Source of the DNA: Beroe forskalii
Taxonomy: Eukaryota; Ctenophora; Nuda; Beroida; Beroidae
Direction: 5' to 3'
Assembly (NCBI GenBank): GCA_011033025.1
Contig: WFMF01000433.1
Coordinates: forward strand, 89,662-153,661
DNA length: 64,000 nt
Part shown: positions 9,691-56,091 of the stretch, piece after piece
How the letters are laid out: each line of letters begins with the position of its first letter
Position numbering within the stretch: position 1 is the stretch's first letter
Translations under genes and position numbers: made by a program
The notes under the pieces: generated by a model
Told to the model about the DNA's origin: nothing
The model's database searches: none
Seen by the model: the letters and a program-made list of their open reading frames with translations, nothing else

Positions 9691-9699
9691 GCAAAAAAT

Positions 9700-10720: not shown

Positions 10721-10739
10721 AAACATGTTATTATCACAA

Positions 10740-12998: not shown

Positions 12999-13179
12999 AT
13001 GGTTTCATTTTTTCTCTTATAAGAATTCTTCATTCCGTCGACGGTCGATTTATCGCAGCAAACCATCGAAACTACAATTAATATCTTCACATGAATGAAT
13101 TATTGCTGATGTTCACTATGGAACAAAATGTTCAACTCTTACCTTTTCTCCTCTCTAAAATATTGATTGTCTCCTGCAG

Positions 13180-18755: not shown

Positions 18756-18760
18756 TATTA

Positions 18761-18960: not shown

Positions 18961-19199
18961 CATCGGCAATCGGCATGCTTGATTGGGTACTGAGTGGTGT
19001 CAGAAAAATCTGTGGCTATATATAAGCCACCGGACAGACAGAAATCATGAACCGGACAGACAGATATATATTTATATCTTATATATAAAGTAAAGTCACA
19101 CGTGAATAATGTTTGTCTGTGCCGCCGTATACAATTAAATTTGAGCTTGCCAAGAAAATATCAAGAGAAACGAATGCAAACGGGAAAAAGGAGGTGCTG

Positions 19200-19883: not shown

Positions 19884-19949
19884 TATTTATATATGAGGAA
19901 GAATTATAAGTAGTAAGATTATGAAGAGTCATGGGGCATAGAATTGAAC

Positions 19950-21355: not shown

Positions 21356-22402
21356 TCAAACGTTGTCCATTCGAATTTCGTCAGAAGTTCGGTTGGTAAA
21401 GTGCCTGATGATGCCCATTTTCTCCCAAAGTCCTCTTGTGACATACTTCCTGAACCTTTTGTTTGTCAGTGAGTAGAGGATTGGGTTGGCAACTGCGTTG
21501 ATGGAGATGCAGTTGAATGCGAGGAAGTCCAGTATCCGGGGAACTGGTTGACCCTTGAGTGTAGTCCCTACCAAGACAGACCTGGCAACATAGGGAGTCC
21601 AACTGAGGATAAATACTGCTGAGATGGTTATGGTGAGGAGGATGCCTTTCATGCATTCCCGTTTCCTGGTAGCCCGCTGGTGCGCTATTCCACAGATAAC
21701 TGCGTTTACCAGAGTGATAAGAATGAGGGGTAGTACAATCAGTAGAAAATGACAAACTACTGATGCGATGGGTGGTTCATAGGTGATAGTAGGTGAGATA
21801 CACTGGCCTATGAACGGGTAGAACTTGCCCACAGGCTCAAATGTGACTAAGAACCCTATAGTAGTTAAGGTTCCTAAAACCCATGCAGCTGCAGAAATGT
21901 AGGCTGCTGTGCGGGGAGACAGGGTTCGGGTTGGTGAGGAGAAGAGGCAAAGGCGGTGCACAGTGATAGCAAGAACGAAGAAAAGATTAGCGCTGCTGGG
22001 TACGTAATTCCCATTGGCCACAATGGTGCATCCTAACCTGCCCAAGACCCACCTACGTGCAGAGAACGCCAGGAAATTAGGGAACACGTGGACAACAAGG
22101 TACATGATATCTGCTGCTGCCAGGTTGTGGATGAAGGTCAATGAAACCTTGTCTAATTTGAGGGCCATGTGACGGATGGAGCCGATAATAACAGTGACAT
22201 TACCCGACACACCAACTACTAGGACCAGGAATGAGAGAATCGAGAGAGGTATGGTTTCAGCTGCACTCATCGTAGGATCGAGTGTATGGTTTGTCTTCAT
22301 CCCGTGGTTGGTGATGCCAATAGCCGTGGAATCTTCTGAAACCTCCTGCAGTTGCAAGGGAAATACTGACATGGAAGTGGGTTGTGTAGCGATTGCTTCC
22401 AT
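21356..22402 (-). CDS. Class A (rhodopsin-like) GPCR, intronless
   Basis: A 348-residue seven-transmembrane receptor in one uninterrupted exon. Numbering from the first in-frame ATG at 22402: TM1 about 53-76 with the GN pair at 68; TM2 about 88-110 with LAAAD at 94-98; conserved Cys125 (start of TM3) and Cys201 (ECL2) for the usual disulfide; HRL at 149-151 where DRY is normal; TM5 about 214-238; SWTPY at 267-271 in place of CWxPY; NPILY at 306-310; then a basic helix 8 and short tail. N38 lies in an N-glycosylation sequon in the extracellular N terminus. This layout is typical of peptide-type rhodopsin receptors at the plasma membrane, but the ligand cannot be inferred. The frame stays open upstream of the ATG only because it runs into a retrotransposon fragment, so the ATG is the sensible start. 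Confidence 0.88.
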   Translation of the reverse strand: MEAIATQPTSMSVFPLQLQEVSEDSTAIGITNHGMKTNHTLDPTMSAAETIPLSILSFLVLVVGVSGNVTVIIGSIRHMALKLDKVSLTFIHNLAAADIMYLVVHVFPNFLAFSARRWVLGRLGCTIVANGNYVPSSANLFFVLAITVHRLCLFSSPTRTLSPRTAAYISAAAWVLGTLTTIGFLVTFEPVGKFYPFIGQCISPTITYEPPIASVVCHFLLIVLPLILITLVNAVICGIAHQRATRKRECMKGILLTITISAVFILSWTPYVARSVLVGTTLKGQPVPRILDFLAFNCISINAVANPILYSLTNKRFRKYVTRGLWEKMGIIRHFTNRTSDEIRMDNV

Positions 22403-22431
22403 GATACGATGTAGCTTGTGAAGTTCGTACA

Positions 22432-22513
22432 GAGGAGTTCGCCTCTGGGGACCCAGTGATGAAGACACAGCACTGGTGTGGTGAATAGAAACCGGTGACC
22501 GTAGAAGAAGAAG
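22432..22513 (+). mobile_element. Non-LTR retrotransposon 3' fragment, (GAA)n tail
   Basis: An 82-bp insert ending in (GAA)n and flanked by an exact 11-bp duplication AAGTTCGTACA (22421-22431 and 22514-22524). Its body ('cctctggggacccagtgatg', 'acagcactggtgt') matches the 3' end of the Jockey-like remnant at 57.93-58.59 kb. It lies about 30 bp upstream of the GPCR start codon, in opposite orientation, in the likely 5' UTR or promoter. Confidence 0.9.
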
Positions 22514-22524
22514 AAGTTCGTACA

Positions 22525-22889
22525 ACTGATAAAAATGAACTATTTGAATATTGGAATTTGGAGTGTATTTCTTTGATTTTAAGAAATATGATACTGCCTT
22601 ATATAATCTAAGTTCCTACTAAGTACCTATCTATCTACTCAAATGATTATTTTATTTTCCCATGACCCTAAATTATCTTCCTTACCTACCTATCTACGCA
22701 AATCATTTTTTCCATGATCTTATATTGCGAAATCCTCAATTATCTTCCGTGTTACGACAGTATGAAGTCTCTTCAGAAGAAAAATCCTTCCACTGAAGCA
22801 CCTGACTGTACTGTATAATATAGTGTACCTATACAGTCAAGATAGACATGATGGGTGGAATAGGGACTTCTTTGTTAGCTTTATCAGAA
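22525..22889. other. Putative GPCR upstream region
   Basis: AT-rich sequence with a short duplicated block containing 'cctacctatctac' and 'aaatcatt'. No gene is seen. It would contain the promoter of the minus-strand GPCR, but I cannot identify elements with confidence. Confidence 0.35.
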
Positions 22890-29774: not shown

Positions 29775-30776
29775 AACACCCAATGTCAGGGCTGCTCAGA
29801 AGAGTCTAACAAAGAGTCAGTACCCAATGTCAGGGCTGCTCAGAAGAGTCTAACAAAGAGTCAGTACCCAATTTCAGGGCTGCTCAGAAGAGTCTAACAA
29901 AGAGTCAGTACCCAATGTCAGGGCTGCTCAGAAGAGTCTAACAAAAGTCAGTACCCAGTAGGGCTGCTCAGAAGAGTCTAACAAAATCAGTACCCAATGT
30001 CAGGGCTGCTCAGAAGAGTCTAACAAAGAGTCAGTACCCAATGTCAGGGCTGCTCAGAAGAGTCTAACAAAGAGTCAGTACCCAATGTCAGGGCTGCTCA
30101 GAAGAGTCTAACAAAGAGTCAGTACCCAATGTCAGGGCTGCTCAGAAGAGTCTAACAAAGAGTCAGTACCCAATGTCAGGGCTGCTCAGAAGAGTCTAAC
30201 AAAGAGTCAGTACCCAATGTCAGGGCTGCTCAGAAGAGTCTAACAAAGAGTCAGTACCCAATGTCAGGGCTGCTCATAAGAGTCTAACAAAGAGTCAGTA
30301 CCCAATGTCAGGGCTGCTCAGAAGAGTCTAACAAAGAGTCAGTACCCAATGTCAGGGCTGCTCAGAAGAGTCTAACAAAGGGTCAGTACCCAATGTCAGG
30401 GCTGCTCAGAAGAGTCTAACAAAGGGTCAGTACCCAATGTCAGGGCTGCTCAGAAGAGTCTAACAAAGAGTCAGTACCCAATGTCAGGGCTGCTCAGAAG
30501 AGTCTAACAAAGAGTCAGTACCCAATGTCAGGGCTGCTCAGAAGAGTCTAACAAAGAGTCAGTACCCAATGTCAGAGCTGCTCAGAAGAGTCTAACAAAG
30601 AGTCAGTACCCAATGTCAGGGCTGCTCAGAAGAGTCTAACAAAGGGTCAGTACCCAATGTCAGGGCTGCTCAGAAGAGTCTAACAAAGAGTCAGTACCCA
30701 ATGTCAGGGCTGCTCAGAAGAGTCTAACAAAGAGTCAGTACCCAATGTCAGGGCTGCTCAGAAGAGTCTAACAAAG
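29775..30776. repeat. 44-bp minisatellite, about 23 copies
   Basis: Highly uniform units of 44 bp ('cccaatgtcagggctgctca' + 'gaagagtctaacaaagagtc' + 'agta'), with rare variants: agag to aggg, one 'ctcataag', one 'aatttcag', and two shortened units around 29945-29995. Its right end overlaps the last codons and the stop of the secreted-protein gene. Near identity implies recent expansion or gene conversion. Confidence 0.97.
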
Positions 30777-35600: not shown

Positions 35601-36108
35601 TCAAAAGGAGCACCCCATGGTTGAATTTGTTTATTTAAAGCTAGACTATAGAAACCAATGTTCTGCTGTTGCGCAGCCCAACATTTTTCCCTATTTGTTC
35701 AAATTAACATTCACACTACCCCCTTTGCCCCTCGTCCCCTCTGAACTAACTCCTTAGATGTAAAAATGGTGTTCTCAATGATTTAATGGGACTGACACCA
35801 CATTAAAACCATATTTGAGCAGATGTATATTAGTTCATTGTAATTTATGGAATAAATCAGATTGAATTTGAATTTGTCTGGTCCCTGGCGTCCTGTTGTC
35901 AGCAACAAAAGTGTTTTCTAAACTGGGTACTGCTTGACACTTACATGTTACTTTGGGTCGCAACTGGCATAAAAGCATAAAGCACCTGTATGAAGCCAAT
36001 TCACTCCTTTGAACTATGCTACTAGTATGATCTCACATAGTCACTTCAACCACCCTACCATGAACCACCTGTACATGCCAGCCGCCTGTATAGCAGCATG
36101 GAGCTCAC

Positions 36109-36252
36109 CTGTAAGTCGTAGAGTCTGACGTGACGGTTGTCAAAGGGGATGGCGAGGGTGTGGTGGGAGTCTTCCGAGATCGCTACTTTGTTCACTGACG
36201 CGTCGCACTGGATCGTGGAGATGGCCGTCCGCATGTTCCGCAGATCCCACAC
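36109..36252 (-). CDS. WDR37: WDR37 exon 7 (end of WD 5, WD 6)
   Basis: Acceptor CTCCTCCAG|GTG in phase 0. It encodes VWDLRNMRTAISTIQ and IPFDNRHVRLYDLQ, matching VWDLKNMRSPIATIR and LPHDNRQVRLFDM. It ends at CAG|GTGAGC. It lies 13.5 kb downstream of exon 6, beyond the giant inverted repeat. The next exon, expected to begin with an Arg/Leu-rich block and end in a GWN word, was not found in the rest of the window. Confidence 0.94.
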
Positions 36253-36892
36253 CTGGAGGAGTCACGTGGTTAGAAATAATGTGGTATGAGAGTCACGTGA
36301 TTAGAAATCCTGTTGTTAGTCACGTGGTTAGAATTGAGAAATTCTGAGCCTCTAACCACAGTGTTTCACTGTTGCATTCAAGGCATATTTGATGAATATA
36401 TTGCTCTGAAGTTAGAGCAAAAACCCTGAAATACCACCACATACAAGTAAGACAGTACATGAAACATCAGGTCACGCGCACAAACAAAACGTGACAAGAG
36501 TCGAAAGGACCCTCACAGAATTGACGCAGATTCGCATGACACTGGAATTGATAATTAGTTACATATCAAATGGCAGTAATTGCGGCAATTCAAAACCCCA
36601 TCACATACATTGGACCACTGACAGCTGTTATAATGAACTATTTGACATTTAGCAGAGAAATTAAATTAATTGACATTTTAGAATTTCAAGGAGGTTAATA
36701 TACCGGTGTATACATGTTTATTGTAATTTTGTAATATCGTATAGTGTATAATGTATGGTGTATATCATGTACAGATTGAAACTGCACAAGAATTCTCTGC
36801 ATATTTCAGCCAGAAATCAAAACACTCGGACAGTGGTATACACTATACCGCAGTCTTGGTTGGAGTACCATAACTGGATATCAGGAGGACCA

Positions 36893-36950
36893 TAAGCAGT
36901 GAAAGCAGTGAAAGCAGTGAAATCAGTGAGAGCAGTGAAAGTGTGTATAA
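36893..36950. repeat. 9-bp AGCAGTGAA repeat
   Basis: Five to six short copies of 'agcagtgaa' within WDR37 intron 6. Confidence 0.85.
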
Positions 36951-37119
36951 CATGATGGTGGGTCAGGAAGTGAGAAGTTCACTAGACATTGCTCTCACTG
37001 CACATGTTCACTCCCATGTCCGCAGGAGTGTAATGAGATACAACCACTGTGTGATATAACACCCGCCTTCCCCAGGTCCTCCACATTACACAGGGTGCTA
37101 ATCAACATGACAATTAATG

Positions 37120-39560
37120 GGGTTGGCAAGTAGGGGGAGCCCATGTATCCGTTTTGGTGACAAGGGCTCCCCCTATCCTATGTATCAAAAATTACAGAGT
37201 TCACCGTACCCAAGCTTCCCCTACACATGGGATAACCTCTTATGAAAGCTCCCCTATACACCGCTCCCCCTAATCTAGGGATCCCCCGATTGTCCGGGGC
37301 TCACCTCTATACCCGGTCTCGCCCATACCAGACTCACCCTTACCTTGGGCTTCGCCATACCAGGCTCCACCGGACCTCGGGCTTCACCAATGCCTTGGGA
37401 TAACCCCGATACAGGGGCTCACCCGTACCAGGCTCACCCTTACCTTGGGCTTCGCCATACCAGGCTCACCCGATCCTCGGGCTTCACGGATGTTCTGGGA
37501 TAACCCCGATACAGGGGTTCACCCGTACCAGACTCACCCTTATCTTGGGCTTCACCATACCAGGCTCCACCGAACCTCGGGCTTCACTGATGTTCTGGGC
37601 TCACCCTCAAACATGGCATCACCCATACCAGGCTCACCCTTACATTGGGCTTCACCGTACCTGGCTCCACCTTATCCTGGGCTACACTGATGTTCTGGGC
37701 TATCCCTGAAACATGGGATCACCCATACCAGGCTCACCCTTACCTTGGGCTTCACCGTACTTGGCTCCACCTTATCCTGGGCTTCGCCATAGCTTGGGCT
37801 CCCCCACACTTATTTGGGCTCCCCCACCAACTCGGGCTCCCCTGTGATTACTCGGGCTCCCCCATACTAACTTGGGATCCACCTATCAACTCCGGGCTCC
37901 CCCTATACTAACTCAAACTCCCCACACCAACTTGGGCTCCCATATACCAATTTGGGCTCCCCCACCTGTTGGGCTCCCCCCATACTCCCATACTAACTAG
38001 GGCTCCCCATACTAACTCGGGCTCCCCCATACTAACTCGGGCTCCTCCATACTAACTCAGGCTCCCCCACACTAACTCGGGCTCCCCCATACTACCTCGG
38101 GCTCCCCCATACTAACTCAGGCTCCCCCATATTAACTCGGGCTCCCCCATACTACCTCGGGCTCCCCCATACTAACTCAGGCTCCCCCATATTAACTCGG
38201 GCTCCCCCATACTACCTCGGGCTCCCCCATACTAACTCAGGCTCCCCCATATTAACTCGGGCTCCCCCGTGCAGTACGGGCTCCCCCATACCAACTTGGG
38301 CTCCCCCGTTCTAATCGGGCTCCCCCATACCGACTTGGGCTCCCCCGTGCTGTTCGGGCTCTCCATACCAACTTGGGCTCCCCCGTGCTGTTCGGGTTCC
38401 CCCATACCAACTTGGGCTCCCCCGTGTTGTTCGGGTTCCCCCATACTAACATGGGCTCCCCCGTGCTGTTCGGGCTCCCCCATACCAACTTGGGCTCCCC
38501 CGTTCTAATCGGGCTCCCCCATACCGACTTGGGCTCCCCGTTCTGTTCGGGCTCCCCATACCAACTTGGGCTCCCCGTGCTGTTCCGGGCTCCCCCATAC
38601 CAACTTGGGCTCCCCCGTGCTGTTCGGGTTCCCCCATACCAACTTGGGCTCCCCCGTGTTGTTCGGGTTCCCCCATACTAACATGGGCTCCCCCGTGCTG
38701 TTCGGGCTCCCCCATACCAACTTGGGCTCCCCCGTTCTAATCGGGCTCCCCATACCAACTTGGGCTCCCCGTTCTGTTCGGGCTCCCCCATACCAACTTG
38801 GGCTCCCCGTTCTGTTCGGGCTCCCCATACCAACTTGGGCTCCCCCCGTGCTGTTCGGGCTCTCCATACCAACTTGGGCTCCCCCATGCTGTTCGGGTTC
38901 CCCCATACAACAGGGCTCCCCGTGTTGTTCGGGTTCCCCCATACTAACATGGGCTCCCCCGTGCTGTTCGGGCTCCCCCATACCAACTTGGGCTCCCCCG
39001 TTCTAATCGGGCTCCCCCATACCAACTTGGGCTCCCCCGTTCTGTTCGGGCTCCCCCATACCAACTTGGGCTCCCCCGTGCTGTTCGGGCTCCCCCATAC
39101 CAACTTGGCCTCTGTGCTGTTCGGGCCCCCATACCAACTTGGCCCCCCGTGTTGTTCGGTGCCCCCATACTAACATGGGCTCCCCCATGCTGTTCGGGCT
39201 CCCCCATACCAACGGGCTCCCCCGTTCTAATCGGGCTCCCCATACCAACTTGGGCTCCCCGTTCTGTTCGGGCTCCCCATACCAACTTGGGCTCCCCGTG
39301 CTGTTCGGGCTCCCCCATACCAACTTGGGCTCCCCGTGCTTTTCGGGCTCCCCCATACCAACTTGGGCTCCCCGTGCTGTTCGGGCTCCCCCATACCAAC
39401 TTGGGCTCCCCCGTGCTTTTCGGGCTCCCCCATACCAACTTGGGCTCCCCCGTGCTGTTCGGGCTCCCCCATACCAACTTGGGCTCCCCCGTGCTTTTCG
39501 GGCTCCCCCACACTAACTTGGGTTCTCCCGTGCTGTTCGGGCTCGCCCTCGTGCCCCTTT
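37120..39560 (+). repeat. Giant inverted repeat, left arm
   Basis: The outer part (37120-37900) has units of about 115 bp ('ccataccaggctcaccctta', 'gggcttcaccgtac'). The inner part (37900-39545) has about 60 copies of two alternating ~20-bp words, GGCTCCCCCATACCAACTTG and GGCTCCCCCGTGCTGTTCG. The outer end GGGGTTGGCAAGTA and successive landmarks ('gattgtccggggctcacctc') appear in reverse complement at 41.35-43.41 kb. It lies in WDR37 intron 6, where the sense transcript reads it as the G-rich strand. Long frames on both strands are by-products of the frame-keeping repeat. Confidence 0.95.
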
Positions 39561-39657
39561 CCTAATCTACTGGTTTTCTGGGGTGTCAGAGGCGGGCTTT
39601 TCCTAAGCACGAAGTGACGCTTACAAAGATTTTATCAATTATCCAAAGTTCTCTTAA

Positions 39658-41162
39658 AGGGCCCACAAGCTCTAGAAACAACTTTATCTTAATGGATAGA
39701 TATTAGCTTGATGTAGAGAATGCGCTTTGTCCCACCCTCTAGAGTTAATTGGATTACGAGATATTAGGGCGCGTAGTTGCTTGTAATCCGAGAGGGCCAG
39801 CATGTTGCGCTACAGTGTAATGTGTGATACGTGTTATACAATAGTACAATGGATAATCATTTATTTTTATGTGAACTTATTATGTAATTAGTGCAATATA
39901 GAATGTTTGGGCAGGTGATGGAACTAATTAGTTCAATTTACCAATATGTTTCTATGAATATAACATGCCTGAAACATCCATTATAGTAATTAGGACACAT
40001 AATATATGACATATCCCTCATGTAGTTATTCTATCACCCGTACATCATGATCACCCTCATAGGAACCATCTTCTTTCGGGTATTTTTCTCTGATCTTGCC
40101 AACAACACACCTTGGGATTACAGTTCGATTATTTTTGCCTAATGGATGTCCTTTGTTGGCCATGATAACGAAGTAGTAAACGATAAAGTAAATGACGTTT
40201 TAAGCCGTTATTCAAGGGCTTAGAAAGATACTCATCCCTTTTCTTAGAATCCTTGATTGATGAACCGTGTATGAAACGGGTGTACTCGAGTCCTTGCGAG
40301 ACCAAACCGTCAAAAATATTCGTTTCTGTCACGCAATTGTATGGCTCAGATATAAGGTCAGAGAGTTCATCACACTTCCTACAACATACAGCTTCCTGAA
40401 CTTTACTGACGAAACATTTGTCACATTCGCGAAATGATGCTTTTGAGACAGTTTGTGAATCCATTTGAGCATGATGCATGAGAACAAAACGAACCACCAG
40501 ACTTTTGCTTCTTCTTCAGAGGCTCCGAAGAAGAGGATGATTCAGCATCCATGTGGGCAGTGATCGCAGACAAACCAATAAATGCAGTACTTGATACTTG
40601 GCTAAATTTGTGTGGTTTATGACGTTTAAATTCATAATAATTTTAAGTTCAAAACCATGTTAAGTCTATTAGTATTAAATCAACGAATAGGTAAATATAG
40701 AATTTGAATACCAAATTATGGTGAGTAACTTCAGACGTCTAATCTAGAACTCTAGAACTCTAGAACAAATCGGGATATTGAATGATACTGTTATAAATTC
40801 TCATTTATGACCCTATTTATTACACTTATTATGACATAATTATACTTGACTAAGACAATGAGATTGACTTCAAAAACATTGCAAAAGCAATATGCGAATA
40901 TTTAATCCACGGTTGCTTGTATTGAATATATGAAATGGAACAAAACAAGAGAAACGGACAGCTTAACACAGTAGATATGTAAGATACGTTTGTTATTCTT
41001 GCCGGTACATGCTGGCCCTCTCCAATCGCGCGTGTATTAGATTACGCCCTGTCGCTAATTGGATTATTTATGTACTGTTCTTTTACGCTAGATCGACTCA
41101 GTACATGTATACGGTAATTTTGTGACATAATTTGAAATTTCGACCTAGAGCTTGTGGGGCCT
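39658..41162. mobile_element. TTAA-flanked inverted-repeat element with P2RX7_C cargo
   Basis: Left end AGGGCCCACAAGCTCTAG; the right end is the complement of AGGCCCCACAAGCTCTAG (one mismatch). Both are flanked by TTAA (39654-39657 and 41163-41166). A second inverted word GAGAGGGCCAGCATGT lies about 135 bp inside each end (39790-39805 and 41007-41022), with partial similarity between. TTAA duplications are typical of piggyBac and Kolobok superfamilies. No transposase is seen; the interior holds the P2RX7_C pseudogene. The element sits in the spacer of the giant inverted repeat. Confidence 0.7.
40026..40552 (-). pseudogene. Frameshifted P2RX7_C-type zinc-domain gene
   Basis: A candidate start at 40552 opens with an acidic/Ser then Lys-rich leader (MDAESSSSSEPLKKK). 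In a second frame come ECDKC, AVCCRKC and YNCVTETNIFDGLV; in a third frame come NRTVIPRCVVGKIREKYP and EDGSYEG, then a stop. The order CxxC, CCxx(C/E), CxTxxxxF, HxxYR, NRxVIPxCVVxxIRxxYPxxDGxYxG is that of the cysteine-rich cytoplasmic domain of P2X7 receptors (Pfam P2RX7_C), found as stand-alone proteins in many invertebrates. At least two frameshifts (about 40440-40500 and about 40160) break it. No channel transmembrane segments are nearby, so this is not a P2X receptor. It is nested in WDR37 intron 6 on the same strand. Confidence 0.75.
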
Positions 41163-41344
41163 TTAATAGTCAATAATCATGTTATTCAAATTTCCTAATA
41201 CTGTTTAGAATTAATTCATTGGGATTCTAATTTTTTAATTTAATTGAATCCATTGATTCAGTACTATTCATAATGTTTTTCATTTAAAACTGTGTGGAGA
41301 GCCGACGTACGTAGATGGAGAGCCTGAGTCAAATAGAGAGCCCT

Positions 41345-43410
41345 TATACTGAAAGGAAGGGGGATGCCCAAGATTGTACGCGGCAGCACTAACAGTGTGT
41401 TGGAGTCTGAGTTGTTATGGGGGAGCCCGAACATTACGGGGGAGCCAGAGTTGGTATGGGGGAGCCCGAACAGCACGGGGGAGCCCAAGTTGGTATGGGG
41501 GAGCCCGAACATTACGGGGGAGCCCGAACAGCACGGGGGAGCCCATGTTAGTATAGGGGAGCCCGAACAGCATGGGGGAGCCCAAGTCTGTATGGGGGAG
41601 CCCGAACAGTACGGGGGAGCCCAAGTTGGTATAAGGGAGCCCGAACATTACGGGGGAGCCCAAGTTTGTATGGGAGTACGAGGGAGCCAAAGTTGATATG
41701 GGGGAGCCCGAACAGCACGGGGGAGCACATGTTAGTATAGGGGAGCCCGAACAGTACAGGGGAGCCCAAGATGGTATGGGGGAGCCCGAGTTAGTATGGG
41801 GGAGCCCGGGTTAGTATGGGGTAGCCCGAGATAGTGTGGGGAGCCCGAGGTAGTAGGGGGAGCCCGAGTTAGTATGGGGGAGCCCGAGTTAGTATGGGGG
41901 AGCCCGTACTGCACGGGGGAGCCCAAGTTGGTATGGGGGAGCCCAAACAGCACAGGGGAGCCCAAGTTTGTAAGGGGGAGCCCGAACAGAACGGGGGAGC
42001 CCAAGTAGGTATGGGGGAGCCCGAACAGAACGGGGGAGCCCAAGTTGGTATGGGGGAGCCCGAAAAGGTGGGGGAGCCCATGTTGGTATGGGGGAACCCG
42101 AACAGCACGGGGGAGCCCAAGTTGGTATGGGGAGCCCGAACAGAACGGGGAGCCCAAGTTGGTATGGGGAATACCGGGGAGCCCAAGTTGGTATGGGGAG
42201 CCCGAACAGAACGGGGAGCCCAAGTTGGTATGGGGGAGCCCGATTAGAACGGGGAGCCCAAGTTGGTACTGGGGAGCCCGAGTTAATATGGGGGAGCCTG
42301 AGTTAGTATGGGGGAGCCCGAGGTAGTATGGGGGAGTCCGAGTTAGTGTGGGGGAGCCTGAGTTAGTATGTAGGAGCCCGAGTTAGTATGGGGGAGCCCG
42401 AGTTAGTTTGGGAGCCCTAGTTAGTATGGGAGTATGGGGGAGCCCAAATTGGTATGGGGGAACCCAAATTGGTATATGGGAGCCCAAGTTGGTGTGGGGG
42501 AGCCCGAGTTAGTATAAGGGAGCCCGAGTTGATAGGTGGACCCCAAGTTAGTATGCGGGAGCCCGAGTTATCATAGGGGAGCCCGAGTTGGTGGGGGGAG
42601 CCCAAATAAGTGTGGGGGGCCCAAGCTATGGCGAAGCCCAGGATAAGGTGGAGCCAAGTACGGTGAAGCCCAAGGTAAGGGTGAGCCTCGTATGGGCGAT
42701 CCCATGTTTCAGGGTGAGCCCAAGTTATGGTGGAGCCTAGGATTTGGTGGAGCCAAGTACGGTGAAGCCGAAGGTAAGGGTGAGCCTGGTATGGGTGATC
42801 CCATGTTTCAGGGATAGCCCAGAACATCAGTGTAGCCCAGGATAAAGTTGAGCCAGGTACGGTGAAGCCCAATGTAAGGGTGAGCCTGGTATGGGTGATG
42901 CCATGTTTGAGGGTGAGCCCAGAACATCAGTGAAGCCCGAGGTTCGGTGGAGCCTGGTATGGTGAAGCCCAAGATAAGGGTGAGTCTGGTACGGGTGAGC
43001 CCCTGTATCGGGGTTATCCCAGAACATCCGTGAAGCCCGAGGTTCGGTGGAGCCTGGTATGGCGAAGCCCAAGGTAAGGGTGAGCCTGTTACGGGTGAGC
43101 CCCTGTATCGGGGTTATCCCAAGGCATTGGTGAAGCCCGAGTTTCGGTGGGGCCTGGTATGGTGAAGCCCGGCAATAGGGTGAGTCTGGTATGGGCGAGA
43201 CCGTGTATAGAGGTGAGCCCCGGACAATCGGGGGAGCCCTAGATTAAGGGGAGCAGTGTACAGGGGAGTCCGTGATTAAAGGTGATCCCAGGTTTAGGGG
43301 AAGCCTCCGTACGGTGAACTCTGTAATTTGTGATCCCGGGAATAGGGGGAGCATTAATGCCTCCCCCTATTCCCGGGCTCCCATACTTGCCAACCCCATA
43401 TAACATTCAA
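41345..43410 (-). repeat. Giant inverted repeat, right arm
   Basis: Reverse complement of 37120-39560: inner ~20-bp words GGGGGAGCCCAAGTTGGTAT and GGGGGAGCCCGAACAGCAC, then outer ~115-bp units, ending in 'tacttgccaacccc'. Copy number differs from the left arm, so the arms pair imperfectly. Near its outer end is a local palindrome, CCCCCTATTCCCGGG against CCCGGGAATAGGGGG (43334-43376). Confidence 0.95.
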
Positions 43411-46400
43411 TAGGATCACTGACACACCCCCCAACATGGCAGCTGAAGCTCTCAGGAGCTCTCTTGGACCGCACAGTGAGATATATCACATGTATAATAA
43501 TCCCATTATTATTCGCTTATTTGATGGATTCCCCACCTTATAATAAACCTCAAGGTGTACAAGGATCAGTATACGTACATCACACCTGATGGGGGATACC
43601 TGTATAATAAAATACATTGATCGTGGTAGCAAGTATGGTTGAAGACCCCTCACAACGCTCATTATAAACAACGATGTGTATTTCCACCCAACTCTTCCTC
43701 AGTTCCTCAGTGAACCATGAAAGGTGATCAGGTGGCTGGCTGCCCGTGACATTGCTAAATTTCCAGTAGACATTAATAATCAGTAATCAGTGGTGATAAT
43801 ATTAAAGGGGGGAGGTACCATGGGGGGAATAAAGTCTTTTCTCATGGCCATGTACACTGAGCTATAAGCCGCTCAACATCGTACATTGTAATTGAATAAA
43901 AGACGAATCCACAGCCAGTCACGGACGCTTGTCAGGCTCGTCTTTGAGAAGTTCTTAGCAGGACACGCCTAGTCGTAATTCTGTTAATCATACATGAGTG
44001 TATTTCAAAGAGCAGGATATTATAGCGTACAATACGGCTAATTTTAGGCATGGCATATTATTTTCACATAATGAAAATCTGGTTCATATAATGAAAATCT
44101 GGTTCACATAATTTTTTACTTTTATGAATTATGAATAATTATGTAGACATATGTTCAGTTCGATGAAAGATATGAAAATTTGGATCACATATTTCGGACT
44201 ACCTATGCCTGTAAAATCTGTAAAAATGAAGGTAAAAATTTGAAAACAACGAATGTGGTCGACACTGGTCCGAAATATTAAGTTCAAACGCTTGAAGATG
44301 CAATCTGCATCAATCATCATACTGACCAGGTAGGAAGCAGGGGCGAAGCCAGGGGGGGGGAGGCGACACATGTGGCCGCCCCCCCCCCCTTCTTGGACTG
44401 ATGAAATGAAAGTTTTCCTTTTGTTTATTTTGATAAAATGGGAGCTTTTACCCAACAAAATAAAACATTAAACAGGTTTTGAATGTAACTCACCGCCCCT
44501 TTTAATAAATCTGGCTACGCCCCCTTTCTCACAGAAAGAAATTTAATCTTTATTCAACAGCTTTTAATAATAACAGCAGAGAATGAATTATTGGTTGGAC
44601 CCTACCGCTGCTTATAGCTAGTAATAGGTTCTCCCACTACTGCTTATTAACGTTTTCAGCAACTTCCCTTGGGAATCTTGGCGAGCTGGTTGAGGAAGAA
44701 TTTACTTGAATAGTTGAATATTTGGAGAGAGTATTAAAATCTTGTAATATCGGCGGCGTATTAGCTAACCATAGGAATTAGGATACCGGAATCGTCATAT
44801 GCTATTAGCCAATCAGCGCTCGAGTTAACGGTCAAGTCGCAAGCTGATTGGGCAATCTCAAATTGATCTCTGGGAAAGTTACAAAGCCGTCGATAATATG
44901 CCTTTTCCTGCCCAACATCTCTGTAATATTATGAGTATTCTGTTACAGCTAGTCGCTCGATACCTCAGTATTCATAACAAAGCAGCGTGGTAGGACCGCC
45001 TGTTTTAAAGGTCGTAGTTGGCACTCTAGTCTTCTAGTAAAGTGGTAGGACCCGGCACAATCAAATACTAACACCTGGCTGTTGACAGAAGAGAGAAGAG
45101 AGCATGCCAAGAGAGCAGTATAGTGACGTTATGATCGTCGAGATGATAATTCTACAGAAATATAGAAAAGGCTGCACAATGAGTGTCAAGTCATTCGTTG
45201 ACCAACTTCCTGTCAGTTTCTGAAACATGGTCAGCCAACCTGCCAGCCCTTTCTGCCATATTGGTTGGTGGATTTTGTGCGAAAAAATGCAACCATTCAG
45301 CACGTTTTGCGACATTGCAAATCATTTCGGCATTTTATTTACATTAATCACTGTCAGACCGTGCTCTATTTCTACAAATAAAGCAAATACCATATAATAC
45401 ACGGTACGACCAGTTGAAAATTCATAATCATTTTCAACCGTGAAGCGTGAAAACAGGAGTGCCTTGTATTCACCAATTTAAGCTCGGCGTATGACTGATG
45501 TCATAGAGTCATAGGGAATCTTGAAGCTGACTTCATCCATCAAGACGACTAAATATCCTCCTTTACGACACCTCCTTGCAAAATGAGAAGATTGATGTTC
45601 AAGGAAGTGACAGTGGCACTGTTTGCTAAGCCTGATTTAAAAACGCAGGCTTTTCAGACTTGAGTTTCTGTACTCTCTCTCTAAGCTTACCATGCCTGTC
45701 ATTATCACATATTGATGGAAGACTATAGTCTGTATAATGGACATGAGTTATTATTAATGACACACACTTTTGTACATGATGTCATGGCAGACCTTATTAT
45801 TATTATTATGCTCACAATGCACATTATTCTGTACTATGTTTACATCATCACCAGAAACAAACTCACGTATATAAATTTAATAATATTATTGTACAAGCTA
45901 TAAGTTTTCCGTCTTCACAAGAATAATAAATAACGTGTCTGGTAAGACTGCACCGTTTAAAACATTATGTCACTCCTCTCCGCTGCAGATTACATGGATT
46001 CATTGTGTGTAGCACGGCGGTCAGTGCAAGCATTTTGAAAATAAGCGCGGTACTGCTGGCCAAAATATAGATTTAAAACTTTCAGCTGACAGGCGGCAGT
46101 TTTGTTTTTTCATCAAGTATTTTCGCCTGAAAATTCTTAAATAGTTAAATCTGAGACTGCAGATGAAATAATAGTTTTTCCACTGAAAAGGAGAGGACAC
46201 TCTCCTTGTGTTTTTGGTTTGTATTTCAGCGACAGGTTTTCAACTACCCAGTCTCCTGTGTAAAGGAGGCCTGGGTCGGGGGTGGCTAGCACTCCCACGT
46301 TGAGCAATTGAAGTGGTCTGCAGGCCCTGAAGGGCACATGTTCCTGAGCAAAAGTTGGTTTTATAGCTTTGTTATGCATAAAATATTTCCTTGTGGTCTG

Positions 46401-47601
46401 AGAGAATTGCCGTATAGCAGGAGTAATGACCGGTCACGATACTGATAATTGCTGTGTGGTGTGCGAGCAATTATCTGTAACGCGACACTTGTCACTTTCC
46501 TGAGCTTTCAATGAAGTCATTAACCTCACACGCAGCTCAACTGAAAAATACTTGAAAAATATTCGAAGAATCTGTAATGAAAGAATCTGTAAGCAGAAGA
46601 ATTTAAATGTGACTCACATAATATTTTGATAAATCATGACATACCTAACGTAATATGATTACGAAGACCGAAGTCACATTCAAACTTATAACGGAATTCA
46701 GAACAATGATACTAGATGTCTAAACTAGAACTCTGAAATTTCACGATGGAACTTCAATATTCAACAAATTTTACTACTTTACTATTTTAGAAAATTTCTC
46801 TCAGAAAAGTTCATTTTCTTATCTCACTGTGATGGTCAAACACATCAGTCTTCTGATCCAAAATAACGGCAATTATTAATATCTGACTCATGATTACTGA
46901 ACACCAAAAGGATATTATGCACATAATATCCTGGTTTTATGCGTCAGGTAATCTTGGAATAATATGCTAATATGCCCTGTACGCACACACGCACACTCCG
47001 TGTTCTATTCCTGACATGAATATATTATGTTTACTTGACAAACCGCATAAAACAGGATAATTGCCAGAGAGCACGGCTGTGAGACGAGCAATTTATCTTT
47101 GCGAATGCGTGAAACTCTGTGGATCTAACGGAATCGTTGTCTCACTCTATTTATAGCACTTTAATATGACTCCAGCATGTTATTATTGTAATATATGTGA
47201 AAATATTTATGTTGACTAGTATTATTATAGCTTTACATTGTGTGTGTATGAGTGTTGCATACCTGGTACAACAATGAGAGGCATAACAACTCAACTTGGG
47301 AACGGCATTTATCAACATACCACAGACGACAGATTTAATGACTTTCTGACGTTCTCATCATGTGATGTAAAGAGGGGCGTTAGCAATAAACAAAACCTCC
47401 AGGTTTATTGATTTCAATGAAGTCATCAGTGGAATTTTTACTTCAGATTTCAGAGGAGACGAATGGATGGGAGATTTGGAAGCTATATTTAAAAAGTTGA
47501 TGAAAAGAATAGAGAATCAGTGTTGTTGAATGTTGGTGCTGCTATTATATAACACGCTGATTCCTCCTGTCAGTCTCATCTGACATAATATTATTGCAAT
47601 A
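43411..47601. other. WDR37 intron 6, middle part
   Basis: Mostly unique AT-rich intron. Apart from the MITE-like element at 44338-44525 I see no gene. A minus-strand frame at 46137-46379 (80 codons, with YTGDWVVENLSLKYKP) looks more protein-like than its neighbours but matches nothing I recognise. Confidence 0.45.
44338..44525. mobile_element. Short MITE-like element with GGGGCGNAGCCAG ends
   Basis: About 188 bp. The left end 'aggggcgaagccag' and the complement of the right end 'agggggcgtagccag' form inverted termini; G and C homopolymers lie inside. No coding content. Target duplication is not clear. Confidence 0.5.
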
Positions 47602-47741
47602 ACTAACAGCCATAAGTCCGCAAATTGTACCTTTCCTCAAGTTGTTGTTAAGAAGTATTTACTTACAATATATTGTAAGTAAATACTTCTTAACAACAAC
47701 TAGTGAGGAAAGGTAAAAGTTGCGGACTTATGGCTGTTAGT
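47602..47741. mobile_element. 140-bp near-perfect palindrome
   Basis: Arms of about 66 bp starting ACTAACAGCCATAAGTCCGC meet at 'acaatatattgt' (centre about 47672) with almost no loop. Only a few mismatches interrupt the arms. It is probably a MITE or a young palindrome in WDR37 intron 6. In the pre-mRNA it would form one long hairpin. Confidence 0.85.
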
Positions 47742-49768
47742 GTGGCTGTTACGAATCCTGGAATCATATTACATACATCCGATAGGGAACCGTGGGTTTA
47801 GTAATGTACTAACTTTTCGCAATTTTCATAACCAATAACCATCAACCATTAATAAGGATAATATATACATTTCGCCATTTTATAGAACTTACAACCTCCA
47901 TTCCATACCACATTATAAAGTGAACTTCATGCTTTCAGAAACCGTGACATATTATAAGGACGGTGGGTGACTGAAGAAACAAAAAATAGTACGACACCAC
48001 CATATTTGATGAGGGTATTTAGCCCCCTTGCAAGTAGTTGAATATAGGGTGCTTCGTCCGCGGTGCATGCATAATTTATCAGGCCAATGATCAACAATCA
48101 TTGATGAGGCTGTATTGTCAATTAACATTTGACGCGATAAATGCATCACATAATTCAGACACCTCTCAAAACCACACGATTTTGTTGTGCTAGTCCCGAC
48201 CGGTGATTCATTCAATGGTCAAATATATGCCTTTCTTAGAAGCCTGTCACGATTTTGTTAAACCATGACACAAGTATAATGTTGTTAATAATCATTTGAC
48301 ACCGATTGACTTATAGCAAAATGGTGTTGTGGTGAAATCAAGAAGATGAAAATAGCGTATTCTCAGAAGTCAGAAGGCAGGAGCCGGAAATATAGCCTTA
48401 TTTAGCATTGCATTAGAGTGGCAACGATTGATCACCGTCAACTTTCTATGCTATATTACTGCCGAGTGCTGAGCGCAGAATATTATATCAAAATATGAAT
48501 TGATGGAGATTTTTATCTATGAGCTATATTTCGGAAGAATCTCAAGAATGATTCCTGTAGGTACCCATATAACTAGCTAACTTAAATTATAATACACGAG
48601 ACTCGACGAAGACCCTCACCGAAGCAGACTTGAAGCAGACTGCAGATTATATTCATTAATCATAAATTTATTCAGATTTTTTTGATAGAGAGAGAATATT
48701 ATGAGAACATTACCTAAGCAACTTTACACTCCACAGTTATACTCCACAGTAACAGACCACAGTAACGGAACATAGTTACACTCCACAGTTACAGTCCACA
48801 GTTACATTCCGCAGTTACACTCCACAGTAACACTCCGCAGTTACACTTTCACAGTTACACTCTACAGTTAAAGTCAACAGTTACACTCTACAGTTACACT
48901 CGGACACAGCTACACTCCACAGTTAAAGTCAACAGTTACCCTTCACAGTTAAACTCCACAGTTACACTCCGCATTTCCCAGTTACACTCCACACATCTGA
49001 CTATTTGAGTTGAACATTGATAAGCGATAACAGCTCGTCGCCCCTCCATCACCTGCCTTAAAATCGTGTTGGAAATGATATTTAATATGGAAATAATATG
49101 TAATAGTGTAATGATGAAGTGATGATTTCTGCTCGAAAGAAGGTCTCGAAGACTACCTGAGAATTGCTGCCTTTGCAGTCACCTCGTCTCGAGACAAAGC
49201 TCCATATTAAATAAGACGCATATTCAATATGGAGCTAAGTATTATGAGCCATATTAAGTAAGATGTTAAAAAGGAACGAGACATTTTATAACCTCGATAT
49301 TCATTACGGATGGTATTTTAATCGTTTTAGTTTTAACAATTAATAACACCTTTTCGCGGTAACTTTTAACAAAATTTTTATTTTGTTTGAAATTAGGGAA
49401 AATTCAAGGGTCCCATGACTGAATCATAAGCCTGACGTTACATACCTATAATTTGTTAAGATGGCACACATAGCGTCACACACATTTTGACTTATCAACA
49501 TTACACAAGTTCAAAAACCAGGAACCCCTGAATGAATATACCACATATTGGGATATTATTACGAACATCACACATCCACTCAATATAACTATATAAGTAT
49601 ATAAGAATACCACACAACATTACGTCACACAGGACCCCACTCACCTTCACAATGGAGTCGTCACAGAACCACAAAACCACTCAATACACCACAGACCTCC
49701 CCCTGACAGTAGAGACATACCACACAACCACTCAATACACCACATTTACCACCCCCCCCCCCGGTTAC
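47742..49768. other. WDR37 intron 6, 5' part
   Basis: No gene is seen. It contains a minisatellite at 48720-48995 and short repeats just beyond the exon 6 donor ('accactcaatacacca' twice at 49677-49745). Confidence 0.45.
48720..48995. repeat. ~14-bp CAGTTACACTCCA minisatellite
   Basis: About 19 degenerate copies of 'cacagttacactcc', with variants at the internal bases. Confidence 0.9.
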
Positions 49769-49980
49769 CTTGACAGTTGAGTCGTCGCTGCCGCTGATCA
49801 CGCTGTCGTGGTGGTTAGTGAAGACTGCGCAGGTGACGGGGGCTGTGTGTCCCTGGTACACGTTGACCGAGTGGATGGAGGTCCTGAAGTCCCACACTCG
49901 GAATGTCGTGTCTTTGGAGCAGGTGACGATCAGGGCTTGTGAGGAGTGGACGGAGGTGTCGGTGATCTCCTGGTCGTGAC
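49769..49980 (-). CDS. WDR37: WDR37 exon 6 (WD repeats 4 and 5)
   Basis: Acceptor CCCTACAG|GT. It encodes [42 protein letters not shown] and [11 protein letters not shown], nearly identical to the family's [41 protein letters not shown] and VVSGSDDRTVK. Donor AAG|GTAACC in phase 0, followed by a C-rich stretch on the plus strand ('accccccccccc'). Confidence 0.96.
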
Positions 49981-50689
49981 CTGTAGGGAGGAGTGTAGAT
50001 GACATAGAGCTTGATAATACCCTGGGCAAACTAGATGCATGACAAACCAGGAATATCTGGACAATCTCAATTTTCTAAAGTAACACAATATTGTTCATAG
50101 TTTAAATGATACAAGTTGTAATTTCAAAAAGCTGCGTTTTGACAACTGTAAGGATTTCTGCGCTGCACAAAAATATTTTTCGAGCTATGGTAAGCGGTGT
50201 AAAAAGATAGAAGATAGAATACCAATAGAGTATAGACGATATGAATTTAGATGGTGCGATAGAAATCTGCCATGTTCGAACCATATTTTGAACTGATCAA
50301 TGACAATAAATATAATATTCTACAGAAGATTCGAATGATTCTGTATTTTCATTTTTCAGCACTCCTGGCCCCATTCCTTGGCGGTTACTATGCAGAGGGC
50401 TTTATGCTAGTTATGTTAACGCAAATTTGGAAGATAAAACAATTTAATCCATGGAGATTTTGTTATTAATCAAATACTTCTGAGTCCAGTGTTAATTTAA
50501 GGGACAATGTGTACAGAAACATGTACTGATAATATAATTTAATCTTGATTGAATTGTAACATAAGACGCCTGGGAAGATAAAACAATTTAATGCATGTTT
50601 TGGAGTAAAACAACCACTTCTGAGTCCATTGCAGTTGCTAGTAAACAGAACCTTGGCTTGGCAGTGATCGGTAACCTGTCCTTTACCAA

Positions 50690-51210: not shown

Positions 51211-51222
51211 ATGTTTACCAAC

Positions 51223-51392
51223 CTGTCAGAGTGTAGATGACAGTGGAGCTCTCTGTGTCCCACACTCGAGCCGTTCTGTCCCAGGAGGCTGTGACGCATT
51301 GTGTTCCGCCGTTCAGCCACTCCGCAGCCGTCACCACGTTACTGTGACCCACCAGGCTCTTCTGTGGTGTCCGTACAACGACAGCAGGCGTA
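51223..51392 (-). CDS. WDR37: WDR37 exon 5 (WD repeat 3)
   Basis: Acceptor TTTATCAG|T. It encodes TPAVVVRTPQKSLVGHSNVV, then [20 protein letters not shown] and WDTESSTVIYTLT, matching the family's [29 protein letters not shown] and LVHSLTGH. Donor ACAG|GTTGGT in phase 1. The exon has much higher GC content than the flanking introns. A 51.4-51.9 kb minisatellite begins about 20 bp upstream of the acceptor. Confidence 0.93.
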
Positions 51393-51413
51393 CTGATAAA
51401 GGGTAGCTTTATT

Positions 51414-51930
51414 AAGGTGCGGGTACTGCTAGAATAGGTACTGCTACAGTGCTAGAATAGGTACTGCTAGAGTGCTAGAATAGGTACTGCTAGAGTGCTA
51501 GAATAGGTACTGCTAGAGTGCTAGAATAGGTACTGCTAGAGTGCTAGAATAGGTACTGCTAGAATAGGTACTGCTAGAGTAGATACTGCTAGAATAGGTA
51601 CTGCTAGAGTGCTAGAATAGGTACTGCTAGAGTGCTAGAATAGGTACTGCTAGAGTAGATACTGCTAGAGTAGGTACTGCTAGAGTGCTAGAGTAGGTAC
51701 TGCTAGAGTGCTAGAATAGGTACTGCTAGAATAGGTACTGCTAGAGTAGGTACTGCTAGAGTAGGTACTGCTAGAGTGCTAGAGTAGGTACTGCTAGAGT
51801 AGGTACTGCTAGAGTGCTAGAGTAGGTACTGCTAGAATAGGTACTGCTAGAGTAGGTACTGCTAGAGTAGGTACTGCTAGAGTGCTAGAATAGGTACTGC
51901 TAGAGTAGGTACTGCTAGAATAGGTACTGT
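51414..51930. repeat. TAGGTACTGCTAGAGTGC minisatellite
   Basis: About 25 copies of a 15-bp unit ('ataggtactgctaga') that in most repeats carries an extra 'gtgctaga' (23 bp), in WDR37 intron 4, directly before the exon 5 acceptor. Confidence 0.95.
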
Positions 51931-53149
51931 TAATAAATTGTTACAGCATCGGTCATAAGAAGTAAGAAGTAAGATATATTGGCGGAATGGTGGAATTGTC
52001 CGGCTTGACAATTGCAATCCCTGAATTCTTATAAAATTTTGCGATTTGCATAAGGAAATACTGTGTGCTATTATGGGTATTCGATTCAGCTGTTCAGAAA
52101 ACTCATAATTACCATTCAATAAAAATACAGCTAGGAAATGCATGGGCATTTGAAGCTAGGGTAATCCGAAAATTTCTTAACGGGAGATTTTGTGGCTTGG
52201 GCGTCAATCAGGCATACTCCACCCTTACCATTTAGTGATAGCCAGCTCTTAAATTATAATATAAAGACGTCGCCCAACGTTTAAATGGTCTCTTTGACGT
52301 TTGCTCCCATTAGAAACGTCAAACCCCAATCTCTCACGTTTGCAAGTAATAAAACATTAGACATGCCACTTTGTGACAACTTGTCAACTCCTAGTGGGTT
52401 CTAACGGAGTGTGCCCCGTGTGGGCACCATGATCTTACATTCAAAGTACACAGATCAATGCTCAGGGACTATGTTGCGGACCATTATATTCTGTACATTC
52501 TGTGTAAAGCCCAAAACATACTACTTTTATTCTCAGTCATGCCATAACCGGGTTTCGAGCAAGTAAGGGTCACGGGGGGAGCTTTTCAAAACTAAGAAGA
52601 GTAAAAAAACTTATTTTTTAAGCTCATTAACATAATATTTGAGAAGTACAAACAAGTTAATATCACTATGTGTGGTAAGAATATAAGTAAAATATTATTT
52701 TACTTCGATTGGACAATCACACAAGGGATTGATGAGGTTTCTATCTATTCTTCTATTGAACCGAGAATATTTATCCTTCAGATTTTCATATTCAAATTTT
52801 GGTGAATATAGAAAACCCTACAACTTTCCAACAGTGTAACCTTTGAAGACAACGGGGTCAGGCCCCTCCAAGGGGGCTGTGTGGAGTCAAGTGCTGGGAA
52901 CTTGAGTGCAGTGCACAGGCCAGCACTTTAGAGTAGGGGCCATGTTTGGGTTTCATTATGTTAACTCGACGTTCATACAGTGCCAATCTCTTATAAGATA
53001 GGCAATATCATTAACAGTTTCATCTCACACTAATCATGAAAAGGCAGTATATAATATGTCTAGACATAAGTAAGGAGCCGGTCAAGGTTAATAAAGCGTA
53101 CCAAGAGCTATGATTGTGTATGAAATGTTCTCTGCAGGTGACATTTAGG
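51931..53149. other. WDR37 intron 4, unique part
   Basis: AT-rich sequence without recognised genes or repeats. It ends at the target duplication CATTTAGG (53142-53149) of the transposon that follows. Confidence 0.4.
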
Positions 53150-54707
53150 CCCATATCCAAAAAGCCGCGAACCTGCAAACCTGGTTTGGGGGAAATTTTG
53201 AGCCGGGGGAAATTTTGGAGAAATTGGAGGAAATTTTTGGCGGAAGCCAAGTACAGAAAATTTTATTTAACACCAAAAATCACTATGTTTTACCCGAATT
53301 ATATTGAAATAAATTTTTAAAATGAAAATTCAAATCGTTCCTGTACTAACTAACAGTTTTCAATGATAGGTAGGATGTAGCAGGCATGGATCCAAGGGGG
53401 CGTGCTGGGGGCATCCGCATGCCCCCAAACGAAAATTTGGAGGCGTGCTCTGGGCGTGCAATTCAAAAAATTTGAAATAAAAATCAACATTAGAATTGAA
53501 AATAAAGTTAGAAAATGGACTAGAAAAGTTATGAAAATCGATGATATTATTTGAAAACAAGTTTTATGAATGGTAGGTACAAAACTAAACGATGTGGTTC
53601 TTTGAGCAATCAATTTCGTCGTTCTACGACATCTTCAGGTCTCAAATTTGATTGTATAAATCAAATTTGAGACCTTAAGATGTCGTAGAACGACGAAATT
53701 GATTGTCATTAAAGAACCACATCGTTTAGTTTTGTACCTGTACCATTGAGTGAAAAGAGAATAAATCACTTACTCATCAATTGCAATCATGCGACTCTTA
53801 TTCAACGACCCGATGCGTGAAATCAATTCCAAGAAAGCATGAATAGTCTTATTTGTCAAGTATCGTTAGCATCAATTATCAATACTTCAATAGCAACTAG
53901 CATTCCTCATGGGTATATAGGTGGCAAAATTGTGTACGACAACAATGATGTAATGATGTAGATGCTGACATGAAAACAGTGCAAAAATTCTATTGAGGTG
54001 ACATTTCTTGACGCCCCACACCTCTGCCGCCCCCAGACCCCTGCTATTCTTTCTCTTCATTTTAAATATATTTAGTGAAATTGTGTACAACAAAAGGGAT
54101 GGAGCTGTTGAGATGAAAACAATGCAAAAACCCTATTGAGGTGACAATTCTTGACACTCCACACCTCTGGCTTCTGGGGGCTGCCGCCCCCAGACCCCTG
54201 CTGTTCTTTCTTTTTTATCTTTAATATATTTAGTGAAATTATGTACGGCAAAAAATATGGAGCTTTTGAGATAAAAACAGTGCAAAGATCTTATTGAGGT
54301 GACATTTCTTTAAACTCCAGACCTCTGGCTTCAGACCCCTGCTAGCGCTAATACATACTTGAATTATTTTTACATTCGGAAAACGTCATTTTTGCAAATG
54401 GAGCACCGCGAGGGCTTAAATTTGCACGCCCCCAAAAATTCTGGGCTGGATCCATGCTGGATCCATGTCAATAACTATAAGCAATGAAAAATTCCCTGTT
54501 CTAGATTAGCTTCACAATGAGAGCCTTTTTAACTTCTGATATATTAGAATAATTACTTTAGCTTATGAAATATTAAAAAAGAAGCAAATTTTGCAAACTG
54601 CTTGCTTTGCTCACAAAATATAGTCAATTTCTTGAGCGAAGCGAGCGGGCTGCAAAATGGGCAAAAATTTCTGGTTCGGGGGAAATTTTTTATTTTTTGG
54701 ATATGGG
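53150..54707. mobile_element. 8-bp-TSD transposon with CCCATATCC TIR, copy 2
   Basis: Element of 1,558 bp with ends CCCATATCCAAAAA and TTTTTGGATATGGG flanked by an exact 8-bp duplication CATTTAGG (53142-53149 and 54708-54715). It is inverted relative to the copy at 16404-17876 and shares its internal hairpin and repeated 'gacccctgct' blocks. Minor indels separate the copies. No transposase. It lies in WDR37 intron 4. Confidence 0.92.
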
Positions 54708-55606: not shown

Positions 55607-55795
55607 CTGCAAGTGAAAGGTTTGAATAACTGCTACCAAGCAGTGGCTTACATGTAAAATCTATTTTCATCAATCATAATTCTAGGCAGCTTACATTGGT
55701 GAATCTTCACATAAATAGTACTGTAGAACATGGTATATCAAATTATGTGAAATTAAGATATTTTCGATTCTCTTATTATTCAATACTCATCATAC

Positions 55796-55966
55796 CTTAT
55801 TGAGTTCACACTTCCTGAGTGGCCTTGGTATTTGAGAAGGCAGTGATGACCCTCAGCAAGCCAAATTCTAGCAGTTCTGTCATTGCTTGCTGTGCCAATG
55901 ATTGATCGGCCCTTTAAACCCTTACAATAGGTGACATCCCATATACCATCCTTGTGGCCTGAATAC
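55796..55966 (-). CDS. WDR37: WDR37 exon 3 (WD repeat 1, start of 2)
   Basis: Encodes GHKDGIWDV, then GTASNDRTARIW, then KYQGHSGSVNSI, matching the family's GHRDGIWDV, GTASADHTALLW and KYAGHVGSVNSI. Acceptor TTACAG|G completes an Arg codon; donor AG|GTATGA. A highly conserved exon. Confidence 0.95.
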
Positions 55967-56091
55967 CTGTAAGCATAACCTAGTAAATGAACAGCTTAAA
56001 GTACCCAAATGGTAAATGTTTCCAAGAAATAGACTGCAGAAGAACGACTTCCAAGCAAAATGAGGTTATAGCAAAATTGTGTAGAACTTAC

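Follow-up and report, generated by a model that had tools for sequence, protein, structure and literature searches.

The window analysed here is a 64,000-nucleotide stretch of the genome of the ctenophore Beroe forskalii (assembly GCA_011033025.1, contig WFMF01000433.1, positions 89,662 to 153,661), and the feature under study is an inverted tandem array at 37119-43397, which is a non-autonomous copy of a DNA transposon of the foldback type. The array lies in an intron of 13,516 bp (36253-49768, minus strand) of a WDR37-like gene; this name agrees with the original prediction and with general sequence similarity, and no database hit bore it. WD40-type exons flank the intron on both sides, in agreement with the proposed location in a 13.5-kb intron: the upstream exon occupies about 49769-49980 within an open frame at 49664-50074, and the downstream exon 36058-36252, the low end being the limit of the open frame. 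On the minus strand, the donor GTAACC stands at 49768 and the exons resume at 36252 after CTCCAG. Further WD40-type frames on this strand (55783-55995 and 51218-51451) exceed the Pfam WD40 cut-off, as does that at 49664-50074; the exon ending at 36252 matches larger WD40 propeller models only, and weakly (best 0.00053). The orientation of the WDR37-like gene is corrected here to the minus strand.

The element has its edges at 37119 and 43397, close to the span of 37120-43410 first given for it, and it measures 6,279 bp with a nested element counted in; self-alignment, tips and flanks together delimit this plus-strand feature. Its termini read GGGGTTGGCAAGTA...TACTTGCCAACCCC, and a 2-bp AT target-site duplication stands on each side (37117-37118 and 43398-43399), recognised by comparison of flanks, with a paralogous empty site known for another copy, L025. 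The left tip, GGGGTTGGCAAGTA, occupies 37119-37132 and recurs on the minus strand as the right tip at 43384-43397. The two arms have the lengths of about 2.4 and 2.1 kb originally estimated. The left arm (37119-39548, plus strand, 2,430 bp) runs from the tip through 100-bp repeats into a C-rich array of 20/39-bp units, and the right arm (41290-43397, plus strand, 2,108 bp), a long terminal inverted repeat, holds a G-rich array. These units of 39 and 20 bp approximate GGGCTCCCCCATACTAACTC, the 100-bp unit is found close to each outer end, and the base composition is 40% C in the left arm and 39% G in the right.

The inverted tandem array is genuine by the self-alignment proposed in the original prediction. 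In self-BLAST, 37117-39139 pairs colinearly with 43399-41410 on the opposite strand (2,081 columns, 83%), so that the outer landmarks stand in mirror order, beyond the 20-bp unit, as had been claimed. The best score is 1815 bits inverted, against 24 bits in the direct comparison, none for the sequence reversed but not complemented, and at most 31 bits for 20 single-base shuffles. Long inverted arrays are difficult to assemble, which would suit a false palindrome made during assembly. Such an artefact is nevertheless highly improbable: divergence amounts to 13% between the aligned parts of the arms and to about 17% between the tips, so that neither arm is a mistaken repeat of the other, 23 other two-ended copies have this plan, whole or shortened, and exons of one gene flank the element on both sides.

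These other copies lie in a genome assembly made up of 1,134 contigs (216 Mb). Exact matches to the 14-base tip number 108 genome-wide, against two for the same letters read backwards. With the left 241 bases (37060-37300) as query, the best 40 of 308 candidates were scored and all 40 match. Thirty-four stretches were fetched, 14 at centre matches and 20 at tips, mostly paired, and yielded a two-ended set of 24 elements, the window copy among them, of 181 to 13,542 bp. Left out of this set were five copies with one tip lost (L011, L014, L015, L019, L022), two partial fetches (L017, which is L034, and L020, which is L033) and the differently arranged L040-L042.

The dinucleotides flanking the two ends are equal in all 24 two-ended copies, being AT in 22 and AC in two (genome orientation). 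The AC-flanked copies are L013 and the 13.5-kb element of contig C170 (pieces L023 and L024), one of which prints GT once re-oriented. In both, AC faces AC and not GT, which argues for a true target-site duplication and against a longer inverted repeat. The same two copies disfavour a Spy-like insertion without duplication. A longer duplication was also rejected: among the 24 copies an exact 6-bp duplication occurs once, within an AT-rich flank, and exact duplications of 3, 4, 5, 7 or 8 bp are absent (eight flanking bases compared). The target has the form A|AT|T, the preceding base being A in 20 of 24 copies and the following base T in 22, and 47 of the 48 ends start with GG, the exception being one end of L035, TAGGTTGG. 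Additionally, L025 interrupts a dispersed repeat, relatives of which run unbroken through the site in L009, L011 and L018 at 86-88%. At this paralogous empty site, L018 reads ...ACGTAATCAATTTTTGG... with a single AT, and L025 reads ...ACGTAATCAAT, the element, and then ATTTTTGG....

The two ends also belong together. Over their first 180 bases, left ends of different copies are a median 97.2% identical, and right ends likewise 97.2% (190 pairs each, from 20 elements longer than 1 kb), whereas left and right ends are 83.4% identical within a copy (n=20) and 83.5% between copies (n=380). Left ends are thus alike, as are right ends, while left and right diverge, and it follows that both ends travel as one unit. 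The tips of the window copy are 98.3% (left) and 99.4% (right) identical to their best relatives. Homogenisation of the arms within a copy, considered as a further process, leaves no sign at the tips, given the near-equal within-copy and between-copy values. A minisatellite duplicated in inverse orientation in place, inside the intron, would also produce arms that are tandemly arrayed and mirror-imaged. Such a local origin deserves hardly any credence, since 23 elements at other loci end in the same tips and have equal flanking dinucleotides, left and right tips form separate lineages genome-wide, and one copy (L025) has an empty site. The reading of the locus as an inversion had overlooked the mobile element, that is, its terminal repeats, 2-bp duplication and many relatives.

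Copies of the family are not evenly spread. On contig C170, at least 13 of the 108 exact tips (100 places listed) lie within about 256 kb (485503-741862), against 0.6 expected by length, and they form a local cluster comprising loci L011, L018-L021, L023, L024, L033 and L036. A separate layout is seen at L040 (7424-7457) and L042 (1613-1646), where related tips, GGGGTTGGCAACTA, stand head to head across TTTAAA; in L040, the flank tatgcagtgacaat precedes three tips. This layout is either that of a sister family or an alternative arrangement.

The capacity of the window copy to fold is considerable. When 37119-39548 is globally aligned to 41290-43397 in reverse complement, the arms are 86.6% identical over 1,978 aligned positions, with longest perfect runs of 149, 70 and 66, and the pairing of the arms as RNA rises to 90.3% over the same positions when G-U pairs are counted. 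The long imperfect duplex originally envisaged is therefore within reach, and the pre-mRNA could fold into a 2-kb imperfect duplex with a loop of about 1.7 kb. The predicted order of a C-rich arm followed by a G-rich arm holds as well, and does so on either strand because the element is palindromic. G-quadruplex motifs with loops of 1-7 bases are absent from the G-rich arm, in which 88 overlapping matches arise when loops of up to 15 are allowed. R-loops and DNA fragility, as put forward in the original prediction, are conjectured effects, as are those through ADAR and Dicer. With an intronic position and some 2 kb of potential duplex, 90% paired, the hairpin might have been recruited by the host to supply double-stranded RNA from the intron, as a substrate of Dicer or ADAR and with an effect on the gene. 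This proposal, which is compatible with a transposon origin, is unlikely, as similar copies stand at many other loci and the position may be due to chance. The case is a warning that a long inverted array within an intron need not be a regulatory hairpin in the first place and can simply be a mobile element.

The centre described between the arms, put at 1.8 kb, is mostly a second transposon, of the Kolobok type. When 39560-41290 was used as query, its bases 1-98 and 1604-1731 were found to be contiguous in other foldback copies, and the sequence between them is a separate repeat that occurs elsewhere at up to 95%. Comparison with these copies defines the family's own short centre, which is split into a left part (39549-39657) and a right part (41163-41289), both on the plus strand. 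The nested element fills the gap (39658-41162, minus strand, 1,505 bp), with ends AGGGCCCACAAGCTCTAG and CTAGAGCTTGTGGGGCCT of the form AGGGCCC.../...GGGGCCT, and it is bounded by TTAA on both sides (39654-39657 and 41163-41166). The corresponding TTAA is empty in 11 other foldback copies, reading CTC-TTAA-TAGTC, and a few more have small changes there. The TTAA duplication and the empty sites together identify an insertion of a Kolobok-type element into the foldback centre.

Kolobok transposons are described as duplicating TTAA and having ends of the form 5'-RR...YY-3', and KolX, a protein with a P2X7-type tail, is assigned to the Kol0 lineage and partly to a few piggyBac families; by the distinction drawn there, piggyBac elements do not have RR/YY ends (PMC9587614). 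The nested element resembles Kol0 in its TTAA, its 5'-RR...YY-3' ends and a remnant of the P2X7 tail. This remnant is a KolX-like P2RX7_C match on the minus strand in the frame 40026-40199 (E 7.6e-7; 29.7 bits, cut-off 23.5), accompanied by a second P2RX7_C frame at 40129-40515, also minus strand, whose 14.8 bits fall under the Pfam cut-off. The nested copy differs from Kol0 in its length of 1.5 kb and in that no transposase was recognised in it. A fuller copy of the nested family is probably present on contig C224 at about 169124-173302, as judged from a 782-codon, THAP-bearing frame between two pieces of that family. A coding role for the centre of the foldback element was considered and rejected, because the frames with a family match are those of the nested element.

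Traces of a transposase were found in other copies of the foldback family. Fragments of DDE_Tnp_4 (PF13359) were recognised by Pfam in L034 (E 4.5e-16) and L039 (E 1.5e-10), and these were the only ones recognised among the frames of ten elements, which were surveyed by eye and then in part submitted to Pfam. Twelve distinct elements among those fetched have the first fragment next to the short centre, two of them with only 15-18 residues of it, and it has at least 16 matches genome-wide; the second has at least four. In other copies the DDE_Tnp_4 fragment lies just outside the left part of the short centre, whereas the window copy lacks it, and a search of the window copy for these fragments gave no match. 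A relative in L043, 52% identical over the 69-residue fragment, contains HTH_Tnp_4 and DDE_Tnp_4 exons. Across the genome DDE_Tnp_4 has at least 35 matches, including several long frames that lie beyond the fetched copies; the whole-genome searches score the best candidates only, and their counts are lower bounds. No HTH domain was seen in the fetched copies, and no autonomous copy of the family was found among those examined.

Taken together, the ends, the duplication and the transposase fragments fit the ISL2EU group of the PIF/Harbinger-related PHIS superfamily, in a foldback form like that of Galileo. PHIS groups are defined by the type of duplication, and ISL2EU elements are described as duplicating AT at the target A|AT|T, with terminal inverted repeats of 6-259 bp that usually start with GG (PMC4482050). 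Most of their autonomous candidates, although not all, contain two open reading frames, one for a DDE/HTH/THAP transposase and one for a YqaJ protein (PMC4482050). The Beroe family shares with ISL2EU the AT duplication, the A|AT|T target, the GG ends and, in some copies, DDE_Tnp_4 fragments. It differs in its tandem-array arms of more than 2 kb, for which the published ISL2EU repeats offer no parallel in length, those of PIF/Harbinger elements reaching up to 1,042 bp (PMC4482050). The structure is otherwise that of the foldback class, namely long inverted ends composed of tandem sub-repeats that vary between copies. No report of ISL2EU elements with kilobase tandem-array ends was found in the literature searched, nor any paper there that pairs ISL2EU with foldback elements; one placozoan survey mentions both ISL2EU and a minisatellite.

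The window copy is very probably a non-autonomous foldback transposon of an ISL2EU-type family. Several points weigh against this assignment. The preference for ISL2EU over other PHIS groups comes from the duplication and the target, and not from a tree. Neither YqaJ nor THAP, part of the published ISL2EU description, was found with the family: THAP has at least 49 matches in the genome and none in the fetched copies, and YqaJ has no genome match at the sensitivity of the search, which was positive for its controls in Escherichia coli and Bacillus subtilis. An intact transposase of the family was not found, the open frames that bear fragments in its copies measuring 41-135 residues, and the five copies that have lost one end yielded no target-site duplication. 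The likeness between array unit and tip, discussed below, is also short, and the 39-bp unit matches the right tip weakly.

The foldback plan has been described for elements of the Mutator and P types (PMC4079207, PMC3573991), and membership of one of these superfamilies would agree with the fact that most known foldback elements are placed in Mutator, as proposed for Tetris, and Galileo in P (PMC4079207, PMC3573991). The Beroe family is nonetheless an improbable member of either, since its duplication is 2 bp and not 8-10 bp, exact duplications of 7 or 8 bp occur in none of the 24 copies, and the transposase fragments match DDE_Tnp_4. Tetris, like other foldback elements, shares with it the foldback plan and terminal tandem repeats with sequence in common with another domain of the terminal inverted repeat, and differs by a suggested Mutator affiliation, an 8-10 bp duplication and TIR-220 repeats (PMC4079207). 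Galileo, a P-superfamily element of Drosophila, is similar in its long repetitive inverted ends, variable repeat number and many copies without transposase. It differs in its P-type transposase, in terminal inverted repeats that range in D. mojavensis from 18 bp to about 1.26 kb, and in the tandem repeat of about 210 bp in its F group, compared with 20/39 bp here (PMC3573991). Foldback ends have been suggested to originate independently in different transposon lineages, and the present family looks like a clear case, in a group with short described ends.

The arrays themselves differ greatly between copies. Counted with one mismatch allowed, the 10-base array core occurs 0-85 times in its C-type and 0-122 times in its G-type form per element (24 copies), the C-type mostly in the left part of elements and the G-type in the right; the window copy contains 85 and 59, respectively. 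In the four smallest copies (181-419 bp) the array is almost absent, and sequence of a single end lies between the two tips. As the unit counts vary, the arrays have grown and shrunk, and slippage or unequal exchange may underlie the changes in length. The array unit has the subterminal motif AGTA(T)GGGGGAGCCC in common with the tips. Of 500 shuffles, 0 and 1 matched the score of the 20-bp unit against the tips, and 1 and 13 that of the 39-bp unit. By analogy with Galileo, in which tandem repeats hold secondary THAP-binding sites (PMC3688188), this likeness suggests that the arrays may multiply binding sites for a transposase.

The course of events at the locus can be proposed in outline. The ends, duplication and target follow from the agreement of 24 copies and one empty site; a transposase of the DDE_Tnp_4 type, the presumed mover of the family, would have carried elements ending in GGGGTTGGCAAGTA into A|AT|T and duplicated the AT. 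The arms are terminal inverted repeats in which the unit of about 20 bp was gained and lost in tandem, differently on each side and in each copy. The unit resembles AGTA(T)GGGGGAGCCC, so that the array may multiply the sites available to the transposase, in the manner described for Galileo. The window copy was inserted in the intron and received a Kolobok-type element in its centre, as the TTAA duplication and the empty sites show. A broader proposal, offered tentatively and with the balance of judgement somewhat against it, is that an ISL2EU lineage independently evolved Galileo-like ends, in which arrays of dozens of degenerate subterminal motifs serve as multiple transposase-binding sites, specificity resides in repeat number, and the ends are able to seed local satellite-like clusters such as that of the tips on C170. 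Copies ranging from 181 bp to 13.5 kb in one genome could reveal how tandem terminal repeats grow and shrink.

The window contains other repeats. A second foldback-like element lies at 9693-13013, with arms at 9693-10482 and 12222-13013 that are 93% alike, tandem units of about 160 bp and outermost bases AAAAAATG...CATTTTTT. A third, at 17877-20467, has arms at 17877-18361 and 19978-20467 that are 95% alike and composed of 11/22-bp units such as GTCTAGCGCCGGTTTAATGCAG. A dispersed repeat occurs at 16404-17878 and 53148-54707, in opposite orientation and about 35 kb apart (92% and 80%), each occurrence with two tandem units of 155-158 bp. Four short arrays of a 143-bp tandem unit stand at 4617-4938, 6139-6460, 7735-8198 and 15009-15471, and a 44-bp unit at 29778-30776, in 22.8 copies with 97% matches, probably forms a young array. 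Finally, the minus strand contains a 419-residue open frame at 21359-22615, the start of which looks similar to that of a membrane receptor gene.

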